Assembly (NCBI GenBank): GCA_026196955.1
Contig: JAPHTO010000107.1
Location: forward strand, 1 to 64,000
Length of the DNA stretch: 64,000 nt
From: Colwellia sp.
Lineage (GTDB): Bacteria > Pseudomonadota > Gammaproteobacteria > Enterobacterales > Alteromonadaceae
Reading direction: 5' to 3'
Made by a program: the position numbers and the translations under genes. The notes under the pieces are model-generated. The model worked only from the letters and a program-made list of their open reading frames with translations. It did no database searches and was not told the origin of the DNA. Shown piece by piece: positions 19,750 to 22,997 of the stretch. Positions within the stretch are counted from its first letter, which is position 1; the number at the start of each line of letters is the position of its first letter.

Positions 19750-20661
19750 TCATCTACGTGACCAGAATTTAATTTCTTGCTCGGTTAAAAACTGCTCGGC
19801 ATTTTCCCCCTGCAACAATGCCATTGTGGCAAGTATTCCTGCTTGAATGCAGGCAGGGGCAACAACTGTCATTGATCTAGGCGCATCTTGTATTGGCCAG
19901 CCTGTTTTGGCATTGAGTACATGGCTATAACGCTTTCCATCTTTTAATAAAAAACGACGCGCATCACCACTGGTGGCTAGCGCACCTGAAGATAATGAAA
20001 TAATCATATCTGTTGGCGAGCTATTCCCTGCACCATGAGCATCAGGATGTTCAATGGCAACTTGCCAAGGGATATTAGTTAAACGCGCACTTGTTACCGC
20101 CAGATCACCGCCTAAATTTACCAGTACAGGGAGATCAGTTAACTCTTTGACTAGGATGATGGCGCGATCAACAGCATATTCCTTCCCTAAACCACCAAAA
20201 TCAATTTCCATTCCTTTGGCCAAAGTAATTTGTTCGGGGTTAAATTGCACTTGTGGCCAACCAACATAAGATAAACAAGCAGCAATTTGCGCTTGGCTAG
20301 GCAGTTTCTCACCACCATCAAAGTGCCAAGCTTTACGTAAAATTCCTGAGGTTATATCAAACAAGCCTTCACTTAATTGATAACATTGTTCGGCAAAATT
20401 TAATAATAAATAGGTTTCTTTATCGATGCTTATCGCTTGTCCAGCACTGTTATTAATAATGCTACAAACACTCAATTGATCATAGCGACTATATTTATCT
20501 TCAATGCGCCAGACTTCATTAGCAACGACATCACCTACCCTAACTGCTAATTGCCTATTCCTTGTTTGAATCAACACCTCGCAAGGGCTAGCCATAGCCT
20601 GAAAGTTCAAGGCATAACCATCTTGGTGATTATTGATACTGACAAGCCTGTTGTTTTTCAA
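19750..20661 (-). CDS. apbE: FAD:protein FMN transferase (ApbE family)
   Basis: 303 residues. ApbE enzymes split FAD and attach FMN through a phosphoester to a Ser or Thr of a target protein outside the cytoplasm. Motifs seen: MASPCEV near the N-terminus, YSRYDQLSVCSIIN, the Gly/Glu-rich MEIDFGGLGKEYAVDRA, LVNLGGDLAV and the metal-site segment ALATSGDARRFLLKDGKRYSHVLN followed by KTGWP (broken here to keep it short). No obvious signal peptide or lipobox is visible, which is unusual for a family that normally acts in the periplasm, so it may act before export or use an unrecognised route. It is last in a four-gene unit, 10 bp after the DUF3570 gene, which supplies a candidate target motif. Confidence 0.92.
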   Translation of the reverse strand: MKNNRLVSINNHQDGYALNFQAMASPCEVLIQTRNRQLAVRVGDVVANEVWRIEDKYSRYDQLSVCSIINNSAGQAISIDKETYLLLNFAEQCYQLSEGLFDITSGILRKAWHFDGGEKLPSQAQIAACLSYVGWPQVQFNPEQITLAKGMEIDFGGLGKEYAVDRAIILVKELTDLPVLVNLGGDLAVTSARLTNIPWQVAIEHPDAHGAGNSSPTDMIISLSSGALATSGDARRFLLKDGKRYSHVLNAKTGWPIQDAPRSMTVVAPACIQAGILATMALLQGENAEQFLTEQEIKFWSRR

Positions 20662-20671
20662 ATAAGTCTCT

Positions 20672-21991
20672 TTAAAAAGAATAAGTTACCTGAGCAATAA
20701 TAGCATCAATAGACGGATATAGTTCAACCTCTTTTAAAACTCCAGGCTCATCAAAACCTGCATCTGTTGGCGTTTGACGGTAGTACTCCAACCTAAAAGA
20801 TAATTCATGACCATTATTAATCAACCTACCGTATTTGATCCCTAAGGTGTAAGCGGTCATTTCACCAATCCTATAATCAGCACTTGCAAACGCTGGTTTA
20901 GGATCATTTTCCATCATAAAGGGTCGATAAAAATCAGCGGCACCTTGTTGATAAAATCGAAAATGAGGCTGTAAATAGCTTTCTGTGCCAAAACTATCAC
21001 TTAATGGAATTCTAAAGCGAGAATCTATAGTGTGAGAAGTGATCTCCCAATCGTCCCACATGTAACGATAAGATACATCTAACACTGTGGTATCAAAATG
21101 ATATAAAGACTGCGCATAAAAACTTTGTTTGACTCTAGAATCAGGCCTAGATTCATAAACATAGTCTTGTGCTAAGCCATCATTATCAACCACAGTCATT
21201 ATTTTAAATGGATCGGTTAAATAACCATCCACCATAGAATACGAATAATTAAACTGCATTATCATTCGACGATTGATAACTTGTGTAATGCCCAATAAAA
21301 TATCCGTGGTAGTTTTATCATCTTCACTACCAATACGGGTTTTAGCAAATTCTTCATCCCAACCAGGATCGCTACTATCGCCGATTAACATCGAAGCAAA
21401 AGGCTTGGGAATTCCCCCTTCTGGGGTAAAAGTGTCTTGAAAATAACTGAAACCAAGCGAAAAGGTTGTATTTTTTCGATCAAAATCTATGGCGAGATTT
21501 CCATTAATGCCAAGCGATAGATAGTCATATTCCTTGGAAAGGTGAACGCCACCGCTAGCCGTCAAATCATCGGCAACAGTTTGAGTCCATTGCCCATTAA
21601 TTTGCACACGAGTATCGCGAAAAGTATCATCAAGCGGTGTATCACCCGGTGCAACATCATACTGCCCATTACCAGATGGGCGTGTGAAAGTTTGCACGTT
21701 TGGTTGCGCTACAGCACCATTTGCCGATGCGCCAGTTAAAGCATCAACTGTGAGCTTAAGGTTTAATACTTCATCATCTTCAAATGTTTTCTTCGCATTA
21801 AAAATAGCTTCGCTTGCACTAACACGATCCGCTTCACTGTAAAATAAAAAAGCGCTGTCAAACTCCCAAGCGCTATCATCTGTTGAATTAACAGTTTCAG
21901 CACTAACGGTACTATTACCGCCTAGTAAAGCTGCTGTCGCTATTGTTAGTGCGGCTTTAATATTTTTATTGTCTGCCTTATTTCTCATCAT
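20672..21991 (-). CDS. DUF3570 outer-membrane beta-barrel protein with a flavinylation-like motif
   Basis: 439 residues: an N-terminal signal (AALTIATAALLGGNSTVSA, cleavage before ETVN), then alternating amphipathic strands ending in an aromatic-terminated strand (IIAQVTYSF), typical of an outer-membrane barrel. It matches the DUF3570 family as I recall it. Residues 83-89 read D-A-L-T-G-A-S, followed by ANGA. This fits the Dxx[ST]GA[ST] site to which ApbE attaches FMN in NqrC and RnfG (for example DTLSGAT in NqrC), with S89 as the acceptor candidate. apbE lies directly downstream and a lipoprotein and a thioredoxin-like gene directly upstream. No function is assigned to the family to my knowledge; a flavin-carrying envelope protein is the inference. 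Confidence 0.85.
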   Translation of the reverse strand: MMRNKADNKNIKAALTIATAALLGGNSTVSAETVNSTDDSAWEFDSAFLFYSEADRVSASEAIFNAKKTFEDDEVLNLKLTVDALTGASANGAVAQPNVQTFTRPSGNGQYDVAPGDTPLDDTFRDTRVQINGQWTQTVADDLTASGGVHLSKEYDYLSLGINGNLAIDFDRKNTTFSLGFSYFQDTFTPEGGIPKPFASMLIGDSSDPGWDEEFAKTRIGSEDDKTTTDILLGITQVINRRMIMQFNYSYSMVDGYLTDPFKIMTVVDNDGLAQDYVYESRPDSRVKQSFYAQSLYHFDTTVLDVSYRYMWDDWEITSHTIDSRFRIPLSDSFGTESYLQPHFRFYQQGAADFYRPFMMENDPKPAFASADYRIGEMTAYTLGIKYGRLINNGHELSFRLEYYRQTPTDAGFDEPGVLKEVELYPSIDAIIAQVTYSF

Positions 21992-21997
21992 GCCAGC

Positions 21998-22228
21998 CTA
22001 ATTGCAACCACATCCACCACCACCAAAACCTTTGCCGCCACTTGATGCTTCTTTACTAAAATAAATATGATCATCAAGCGCTGAATCTATGGGTGAAGCC
22101 GTTAACGTCATTTCTTTTTTGGATAACAAATCTCGCTCCCATGGCTCTACCCCAAGGCTTGAACACCCTGATGCAGTAATACTTAACGAAATTAATAAGA
22201 CAACTTTCGCTTTGTTCATAATATTCAT
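21998..22228 (-). CDS. Small DUF4266 lipoprotein with a Gly/Cys C-terminal tail
   Basis: 76 residues. A lipoprotein signal (MNIMNKAKVVLLISLSITAS-GC, lipid-accepting Cys at 22) is followed by a short conserved segment (GVEPWERDLLSKKEM), an HIYFSKEAS stretch and a C-terminal GGKGFGGGGCGCN tail with two closely spaced Cys. This matches DUF4266 as recalled. The start at 22228 is chosen because AGGAAAGG lies at the correct distance; the frame is open to 22261. The gene is 6 bp upstream of the DUF3570 gene and about 38 bp downstream of the thioredoxin-like gene. The tail suggests metal binding, a thioether link or a redox pair; nothing in the sequence decides which. Confidence 0.8.
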   Translation of the reverse strand: MNIMNKAKVVLLISLSITASGCSSLGVEPWERDLLSKKEMTLTASPIDSALDDHIYFSKEASSGGKGFGGGGCGCN

Positions 22229-22266
22229 AACCTTTCCTACTAGGTAATATTTCTTGTTCAAAATGC

Positions 22267-22776
22267 TTAATTATCTGAAGACAGTAATTGTTCAATTTCA
22301 GCTTGATAAACAGGAATTTTTTTAGTGAAAAAACCAGTATGACGTTTTTTAATCTTGCCATCCCTACCAATTAACATACTGCTTGGCATGCCTTGAATGG
22401 CGAAGTGTTTTGCTATTTTACCTTTGGGATCATAGATAACCGCAAAAGAAGCAGGAATTTCAGCAAGAAATTTTTCTGCTAGCGCACGATTTGCATCTAA
22501 ATTAACGCTAATAACACTAAAACCTTGCGATTTATACTTTTCTTGAATGGTATTCATCCAAGGGAATGACTTTCTGCATGGCACACACCAAGATGCCCAA
22601 AAATCAAGATAAACAACCTCTCCTTGATGTTTAGCGAGAGCAACTTCCAAAGTTTGACGACTACTAATGTTCTCATTCGCCATACTATTGCTATGACTGA
22701 TAAGAGCGAACGCCAAAATGACTAATATCAATTTATTCTGTAAAAAGTTAAACACGTTAAACTTCCAATACCTCAA
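22267..22776 (-). CDS. TlpA/ResA-like periplasmic thioredoxin
   Basis: 169 residues with an N-terminal export signal or anchor (about 12-33, KLILVILAFALISHSNSMA) and a TlpA-type thioredoxin fold. The active site is W-C64-V-P-C67 in DFWASWCVPCRKSFPW, and the cis-proline loop is QGMPSSMLIG. The CVPC spacer is common in reducing or specialised thioredoxins such as TlpA and CcmG rather than DsbA. It is first in the unit with the DUF4266 lipoprotein, DUF3570 barrel and apbE. Keeping the lipoprotein's Cys tail reduced, or delivering it in a given redox state, is a plausible but inferred job. Confidence 0.88.
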   Translation of the reverse strand: MRYWKFNVFNFLQNKLILVILAFALISHSNSMANENISSRQTLEVALAKHQGEVVYLDFWASWCVPCRKSFPWMNTIQEKYKSQGFSVISVNLDANRALAEKFLAEIPASFAVIYDPKGKIAKHFAIQGMPSSMLIGRDGKIKKRHTGFFTKKIPVYQAEIEQLLSSDN

Positions 22777-22997
22777 CTATTTATCTGATTAAAACATAGT
22801 TTGTCGATGTTTTCTTAATGAATTCTTAAGAAAGGTTATAAATCTATTATTTGAGTTTTATCAGATTAAATTATCACCACGCTAGTTTATGGGTCTAACC
22901 TATTCATAAGTCATTGCTAGCTCCTTATAACTATTTAGTTTAACAGAGACTCATTTTATAATTGCTTTTCTCGTCAAAACTGGCAGAGTGTCTATAA

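Follow-up and report, generated by a model that had tools for sequence, protein, structure and literature searches.

The window, a 64,000-nucleotide stretch of a Colwellia sp. genome (contig JAPHTO010000107.1, positions 1 to 64,000 of the forward strand), carries on its minus strand a four-gene operon for a thioredoxin, a DUF4266 lipoprotein, a DUF3570 protein and an ApbE-type enzyme, which transfers flavin mononucleotide (FMN) from flavin adenine dinucleotide (FAD) to proteins. This operon is a real and conserved member of the published DUF3570 flavinylation system, a system without a tested function. The explanation we favour, on which we would place an even wager, is that an ApbE lacking a signal peptide loads FMN onto DUF3570 in the cytosol, that the flavin comes to face outward on an outer-membrane barrel, and that a chain of thiols passes electrons through it to Fe(III). 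Our computations back the set of genes, the conservation of the acceptor, the barrel with its conserved outward side, the lack of a signal peptide and a residue pair in ApbE; FMN attachment is experimental for a homologue, and we infer that it takes place in the cytosol, by which route the electrons travel and that iron accepts them. The features are as follows, the signal peptides and the lipobox having been read from the sequence.

22267-22776, minus strand: exported TlpA/ResA-like thioredoxin, 169 aa, with the motif WASWCVPC and a hydrophobic N-terminal signal (open reading frame, Pfam).
21998-22261, minus strand: DUF4266 lipoprotein, 87 aa, with lipobox TASGC and the C-terminal tail GGGGCGCN, which holds a CGC dithiol (open reading frame, Pfam).
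20672-21991, minus strand: DUF3570 protein, 439 aa, a signal peptide followed by a predicted 16-strand outer-membrane beta-barrel (Pfam, structure model, fold matches).
21725-21745, minus strand: flavinylation motif D83-A-L-T-G-A-S89 of DUF3570, with acceptor S89 (codon TCG, 21725-21727) in the loop joining strands 3 and 4, which is predicted to be extracellular.
19750-20661, minus strand: ApbE-type FAD:protein FMN transferase, 303 aa, with no recognisable signal peptide; Ser231, His247, Gly275 and Glu161.
22815-22830, minus strand: PmrA/QseB-like response-regulator box CTTAAGAATTCATTAA with one mismatch, 39-54 nt 5' of the first-listed thioredoxin start.

The same gene set was described by Méheust (2021; PMC8238504), where FMN attachment was shown on the DUF3570 protein of Chlorobium luteolum and required the motif serines. 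The main text of that paper proposes a hybrid thioredoxin/flavin system fed by DsbD, points out the CXC tail of DUF4266, lists 25 clusters with the iron transporter VIT1, and puts the number of such clusters at 316 where DsbD is not nearby, with 227 DUF3570 clusters in the group that has DsbD. Since DUF3570 flavinylation was published in 2021, the central idea of the sequence-only reading is sound and already in print; its remark that no function was known to be assigned to the set has to be amended accordingly, since the set appears there as a flavinylation system. The window operon shares with that system the four genes and the CXC tail, and probably DUF3570 as the ApbE substrate. It differs in that the paper reports two motifs in DUF3570 whereas the window protein has one, and in that DsbD adjoins the cluster in the published DsbD-colocalised subset whereas the one DsbD_TM match in our genome lies away from the operon on contig C123, which places the operon with the published clusters without DsbD nearby. 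What looks new is the flavin site that faces outward, together with an ApbE that lacks a signal and the paired change in its active site. The word "barrel" occurs 0 times in the main text of PMC8238504, and neither an outward flavin site, nor a signal-less ApbE, nor an Asp-to-Gly/Gly-to-Glu pair was met there; in the open-access literature, supplements excluded, we found no mention of a barrel or of a signal-less ApbE for this system.

Transcription runs from the thioredoxin through DUF4266 and DUF3570 to ApbE, as judged from the open reading frames and Pfam, with intergenic gaps of 5, 6 and 10 nt in that order, so that the four same-strand genes with short gaps are borne out to the base. The Pfam E-values are 8.5e-21 for Redoxin (AhpC-TSA and thioredoxin models match as well), 6.8e-22 for DUF4266, 1.7e-158 for DUF3570 and 2.1e-63 for ApbE. 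PF13899, the thioredoxin family of the published system, is not among the matches listed for the window thioredoxin, which matches Redoxin, AhpC-TSA and other thioredoxin models instead.

The pattern D-x-x-[ST]-G-A-[ST] occurs once among the 18,656 residues of the window's stop-to-stop frames of at least 200 aa, and translation confirms the position first assigned to it, DALTGAS at DUF3570 residues 83-89 with S89 encoded at 21725-21727. DUF3570 is present in 100 of 196 genomes of the family and in 29 of 398 of the phylum. Excluding the window, we compared 158 loci, the added ones picked by us from search lists and hence non-random; removal of identical barrels left 154, and dropping seven near contig ends (L067, L073, L074, L099, L102, L105, L179) left 147, each with at least 1.5 kb of flank on both sides. 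A gene is called near when it lies within 3.5 kb. By this measure apbE is near at 103 of the 147 loci, and [ST]GA[ST] is found in 102 of these 103, the exception reading TGSS. The sequence-only reading had named DUF3570 as the ApbE target and proposed that conservation of DxxTGA[ST] be compared with the presence of apbE; the assignment is well supported by this count and by the published flavinylation of a homologue (PMC8238504). A chance motif is ruled out by the single match per 18,656 residues together with the near-complete conservation beside apbE. It is very improbable, in our view, that TGAS/SSAS is a structural element of a barrel that bears no flavin. The A-S does persist where the Gly is lost (SSAS in 16 and SNAS in 2 of the 41 rows of subclass III, defined below), but a homologue has been flavinylated directly in a manner that needs the motif serines (PMC8238504), and the intact motif goes with a nearby apbE in those 102 of 103 cases. 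Among the 80 loci that we refer to as named, 79 read TGAS, each with a single motif, and one reads TGSS; apbE was found at 75 and a thioredoxin at 71, neighbour counts that are limited by the short contigs on which some of these loci lie. The TGSS variant beside apbE is rare (L024, L064) and is a natural test of motif tolerance.

The remaining 44 of the 147 loci have no apbE within 3.5 kb; the motif is kept in 26 and absent in 18. We accordingly rejected the rule that no apbE nearby means no motif, the SSAS and SNAS rows themselves retaining the acceptor Ser. A tree was built from 101 barrels, namely the window and 100 of the 147 loci (all those without apbE and all those with two motifs, other classes being sampled), by a short search with the Shimodaira-Hasegawa-like approximate likelihood ratio test as its only support measure. 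The window DUF3570 falls in subclass I, which has one motif, and its closest row is a Colwellia locus (L055); three of the 26 motif-keeping loci without a nearby apbE (L043, L088, L093) belong to the same subclass. Across the aligned DUF3570 proteins of three subsets, from which 11 of the 101 rows were omitted as outlying or unassigned, the acceptor is Ser in 89 of 90 and Thr in 1. Two motifs occur at 12 of the 147 loci, all among the 102 apbE-linked ones; nine of these rows form one clade, and L174, L175 and L180 are placed elsewhere. The two motifs stand at opposite ends of one loop, the second acceptor aligning to window residue 118 in five of the six proteins mapped and to residue 106 in the sixth (L174).

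Subclass III is a single clade of 41 loci on a long branch with no apbE within 3.5 kb, where the letters before the acceptor are SGA, TGA, SSA or SNA. One member is the divergent copy on contig C29 of our own genome, which has three DUF3570 genes in all, the others being the window gene and a full paralogue on contig C42. An open reading frame with at least two CxxCH motifs is nearby at 41 of 41 subclass III loci against 5 of 102 apbE-linked loci, and all five belong to the two-motif set; in our own genome, one of these multi-CxxCH proteins is HZS_alpha-like. These counts speak for a reading in which heme has replaced flavin in subclass III and the barrel is a generic electron port for either cofactor. 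We first framed this swap as a firm claim and demoted it to an alternative in view of the Hymenobacter operon described below and the invariant acceptor Ser, and we now consider it doubtful. Subclass III being one clade, the swap would be one event; the five exceptions indicate that heme proteins and apbE can coexist; and the acceptor Ser is still invariant in the subclass. Moreover, 8 of the 14 family genomes with subclass III have other ApbEs at a distance of about 11-21 kb (our count from coordinates; a signal peptide is present in the three sequences seen), so that flavin may still be attached there. An independent-pairs test on the tree found only two to three pairs and no significant association of apbE with motif or heme, and both associations thus rest on few events. 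L140 (10303-13005) and other subclass III loci carry HZS_alpha-like or other open reading frames with at least two CxxCH.

The AlphaFold2 (AF2) model of the window DUF3570, made from 52 sequences, has 16 strands at a predicted local distance difference test score (pLDDT) of 86.6 and a predicted template modelling score of 0.82, with a low-confidence signal region at residues 1-38. Structural matches (Foldseek, VIA-align 2) are outer-membrane barrels over the whole chain, from first to last strand: PgaA (4y25; Z 20.2, 259 residues, root-mean-square deviation 3.9), CymA (4d5b; Z 17.7) and OmpG (2iwv; Z 16.6), the best Z against known barrels being 21.8. They speak to fold only and not to function, and no flavin-bearing barrel is named among the 50 PDB fold matches listed per search. 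The model and these matches support the outer-membrane barrel of the sequence-only reading, which had also considered burial of the motif in a barrel strand as a point that would tell against it; in the model S89 lies just beyond strand 3 (75-87), in the 88-123 loop. The chain has a signal peptide, an even number of strands and a C-terminus that ends in SF, with a C-terminal Phe. Such barrels usually have both termini in the periplasm. With both ends periplasmic, the long loops, all of which lie on one side of the model, would be extracellular, and the S89 loop with them; on this model, the FMN carrier of DUF3570 probably faces outward. Among the long loops, the 88-123 loop varies least (mean entropy 0.78, compared with 1.11 for strands and 1.73 for periplasmic turns). 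All 21 positions at which the same residue reaches at least 80% in each subset fall in the extracellular half (hypergeometric P 9e-5), as do all 12 such shared positions within strands (P 1.1e-4). Shared positions 152/154/156 and 345/347/349 have the i, i+2 spacing of a common face, which we read as putatively lumen-facing.

The AF2 model of the window ApbE (pLDDT 93.3) has an intact fold that aligns with ApbE structures over almost its full length (39 ApbE chains at E <=2.1e-17, template modelling score by query 0.74-0.83). With the classical periplasmic ApbEs of V. cholerae and E. coli, T. pallidum Ftp and Listeria FmnB it has in common the fold, the FAD-binding core and the catalytic Ser and His; unlike them it has no recognisable signal peptide, a Gly at the place of the metal/catalytic Asp and a Glu after the Lys. 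Its N-terminus is polar, and an in-frame stop lies shortly 5' of the TTG start. No signal peptide was seen between plausible start and core in the ApbEs of 75 named relatives, and the periplasmic ApbE of the NqrC and RnfG cases, on which the first interpretation was patterned, is a misfit here. When the best-case hydrophobicity over all starts is taken, 106 DUF3570-linked ApbEs have a median of 0.57 and two reach 2.0, a value reached by 31 of 31 secreted comparators; these are the best-scoring PF02424 matches plus the second secreted ApbE of our genome, and therefore lean to the classical type. In our own genome, the ApbEs on C144 (near an NqrF-like gene) and C29 have signals and the two DUF3570-linked ones have none.

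The residue pair separates the same two groups. Glu after the conserved Lys together with Gly for the metal/catalytic Asp, a combination we write as K-E/G, is found in 106 of 106 DUF3570-linked ApbEs, and the usual K-G/D pair (Gly after Lys, Asp) in 31 of 31 secreted comparators. The window enzyme has Glu161 and Gly275, and retains Ser231, His247 and Thr279. Ser231 and His247 are invariant in 33 aligned sequences and correspond by alignment to Ser241 and His257 of V. cholerae, which the review PMC12052999 gives with Asp285 as the conserved residues of the catalytic centre; the counterpart of Asp285 is absent from the window ApbE, Gly275 standing there. For T. pallidum, Asp284, Ala162 and Thr288 are described at a Mg site (PMC5655446). 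Judged by these residues, the window enzyme would belong to a variant ApbE subfamily and not to the classical one. Recognised by a score band, with sequences checked in part, this ApbE type coincides across 39 family genomes with DUF3570 outside subclass III: the 17 genomes with such a DUF3570 all have it, and the 22 others lack it. The signal-less K-E/G pattern also reaches other orders and classes of Pseudomonadota (15 linked ApbEs) and a Vibrio replicon (L277). A further survey covered 18 more regions, 17 of them with an ApbE match. K-E/G is not the mark of every signal-less ApbE, since L257-L262, without evident signal, keep K-G (their Asp position is not cleanly resolved by the pattern used), nor does it always adjoin DUF3570: L264, where K-E was seen, and probably L263 are extra copies with no DUF3570 in the fetched stretch, although their genomes do have DUF3570 elsewhere. 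Beside L258, of the signal-less K-G type, a neighbouring protein appears by eye to have a twin-arginine-like N-terminus, which would suit cytosolic loading and export by the twin-arginine translocation route. Cys27, Cys93 and Cys271 of the window ApbE are invariant in the 33 aligned DUF3570-linked enzymes.

The signal-less enzyme and the paired change in the DUF3570-linked ApbEs of Pseudomonadota make it probable that the cytosol is where FMN is joined to the barrel chain, ahead of its export, in contrast to textbook accounts of periplasmic ApbE. A periplasmic enzyme cannot reach an outward loop of an inserted barrel, which favours attachment before insertion, and an enzyme without a signal would encounter the barrel nowhere but in the cytosol, which favours attachment before export. 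In the sequence of events we propose, the signal-less ApbE of a distinct subfamily would take FMN from FAD and join it to S89 in the cytosol; the unfolded, flavinylated barrel would then be exported by Sec and inserted in the outer membrane, where its single covalent FMN, on S89, would sit in a conserved pocket of polar residues, Arg included, at the extracellular mouth. Attachment in the periplasm, whether by an operon ApbE exported by an unrecognised route or by the genome's secreted ApbEs acting before barrel insertion, is to our mind fairly unlikely. It has in its favour that ApbEs serving secreted targets are described as periplasmic (PMC12052999), that our genome has two secreted ApbEs, that one Bacteroidota DUF3570 operon has a secreted ApbE, and that subclass III barrels keep the acceptor Ser with no apbE within 3.5 kb. 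However, the adjacent ApbE is signal-less in the 75 named relatives at plausible start, and the confinement of this ApbE type to the 17 of 39 family genomes with a non-subclass-III DUF3570 marks the signal-less enzyme as the dedicated one. A cytosolic, signal-less ApbE is described for Klebsiella pneumoniae, where it goes with a soluble fumarate reductase (PMC12052999). By that description it resembles the window ApbE in lacking a signal peptide, but its target stays in the cytosol whereas the window target is exported to the outer membrane.

On the donor side, the DUF4266 tail reads CGC followed by N, K or Y at 147 of 147 loci, and a thioredoxin match is near at 134 of 147. That the thioredoxin and the DUF4266 lipoprotein are electron partners is plausible and has been published as a hypothesis. 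Periplasmic reducing power would pass from DsbD to the TlpA-like thioredoxin, then to the CGC dithiol on the flexible DUF4266 tail and on to FMN, which would hand electrons to an external acceptor, most likely Fe(III), and so feed ferrous uptake. A more specific version, which we offer tentatively, is a heme-free outer-membrane electron port: the barrel would receive its FMN in the cytosol from a dedicated signal-less ApbE with Glu for the normally conserved Asp and would cross Sec with the flavin on, and once it is in the outer membrane the FMN at the external mouth would be reduced by the CGC tail, a lipid-anchored arm swinging up into the barrel from the periplasmic side. The invariance of the CGC tail and the closeness of the thioredoxin would also suit a role in surface thiol/disulfide or copper handling, in which tail and thioredoxin do the main work and the flavin is secondary; so would the 41 subclass III loci that retain barrel and DUF4266 with no nearby apbE, and the cupredoxin-like neighbours of 24 of 80 named relatives. 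We think this quite unlikely, as the acceptor Ser persists in subclass III, and weakly EfeU-like and ZIP-like neighbours, like the published VIT1 link (PMC8238504), point to iron.

Iron as the external acceptor is our best guess, inferred from neighbours and an upstream box. Around the 80 named relatives, mostly downstream and on the same strand, we find neighbouring clusters that include a response regulator (26), a histidine kinase (29), a cupredoxin (24), a membrane protein (in 27 cases) and a protein that is likely exported (28). The C42 paralogue (L188) likewise has a cupredoxin, a permease and, beside it, a response regulator and kinase; genes for a ZIP transporter and for a cytochrome b561 are also in its vicinity. 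Within the 100 nt ahead of the thioredoxin gene, 51 of 70 relatives have a CTTAA-N6-CTTAA box with at most one mismatch, where mononucleotide shuffling gives 0.6 on average and 4 at most; the strict box, sought over about 320 nt, is present in 29 of 70 (shuffle mean 0.09). It resembles the PmrA box in its letters, the half-sites of which are given as CTTAAT and CCTAAG (PMC3973317). Taken together, the two-component system, the cupredoxin, the weakly EfeU-like permease and the PmrA-like box favour iron reduction.

Several observations weigh against the reading we favour. Signals were scored as absent from hydrophobicity and visual inspection, with uncertain start codons, and the ApbEs of L057 and L059, which belong to the 75 named relatives and are the two of 106 that pass the threshold, gain a hydrophobic stretch if a far-upstream start is allowed. 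Hymenobacter sp. DG25B, the one intact Bacteroidota ApbE examined, has a signal peptide and the usual Asp, beside a DUF3570 (split over two frames) that reads SSAS; it led us to reject the signal-less ApbE as a rule for all phyla, and cytosolic attachment is likewise no rule for the whole DUF3570 family. Our scheme also presupposes that an FMN-bearing chain can pass through Sec. As a group, extracellular loops vary more than strands do (mean entropy 1.29), and conserved barrel residues could serve structure and not flavin binding. As to iron, the C42 permease matches EfeU weakly (9.4e-7, 28.7 bits against a cut-off of 255), the box is no commoner at loci with a response regulator (17 of 25) than at those without (34 of 45), and iron-linked neighbours occur in about a third of relatives and not beside the window operon.

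If the favoured reading is true, a bulky redox cofactor is placed on an outer-membrane protein before export, which falls outside accounts of ApbE as periplasmic for secreted targets, and the active-site pair would show that an Asp deemed catalytic is replaceable. In porin-cytochrome conduits of the Mtr type, an outer-membrane barrel carries electrons to acceptors outside the cell. The likeness to these lies in the proposed barrel-borne electron exit; the difference is that no cytochrome is among the four operon genes, so that covalent FMN and a dithiol tail would have to replace the hemes. For Gram-negative bacteria, marine ones among them, an outward covalent flavin would then be a simple electron route over the outer membrane without multiheme cytochromes, and a testable function would follow for the DUF3570/DUF4266 family.

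TTG is the first-listed start codon of the thioredoxin, DUF4266 and ApbE frames, and for the thioredoxin and ApbE the true start may lie a few codons away; in DUF4266 the lipobox would, in our reading, be better accommodated by an in-frame ATG at 22228 or 22219. An ATG within the last DUF4266 codons is a possible DUF3570 start at 55 of the 80 named loci, whereas the window has no such ATG inside the DUF4266 end and DUF3570 starts 6 nt downstream. On the plus strand, the operon is neighboured by a DUF3083 gene and asparagine synthase B. No DUF3570 match was found in phage records, and a Hymenobacter DUF3570 query gave no confirmed relative in viral contigs. On Hymenobacter plasmids, two genes are each broken across two frames, the ApbE of L275 and the DUF3570 of L276, and the DUF4266 frame of L275 is without the usual CGC tail. 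L173 (4766-7504, the same gene as L150) encodes 912 aa, a DUF3570 with SGAT and SSAS followed by about 350 residues that by eye resemble a second barrel.

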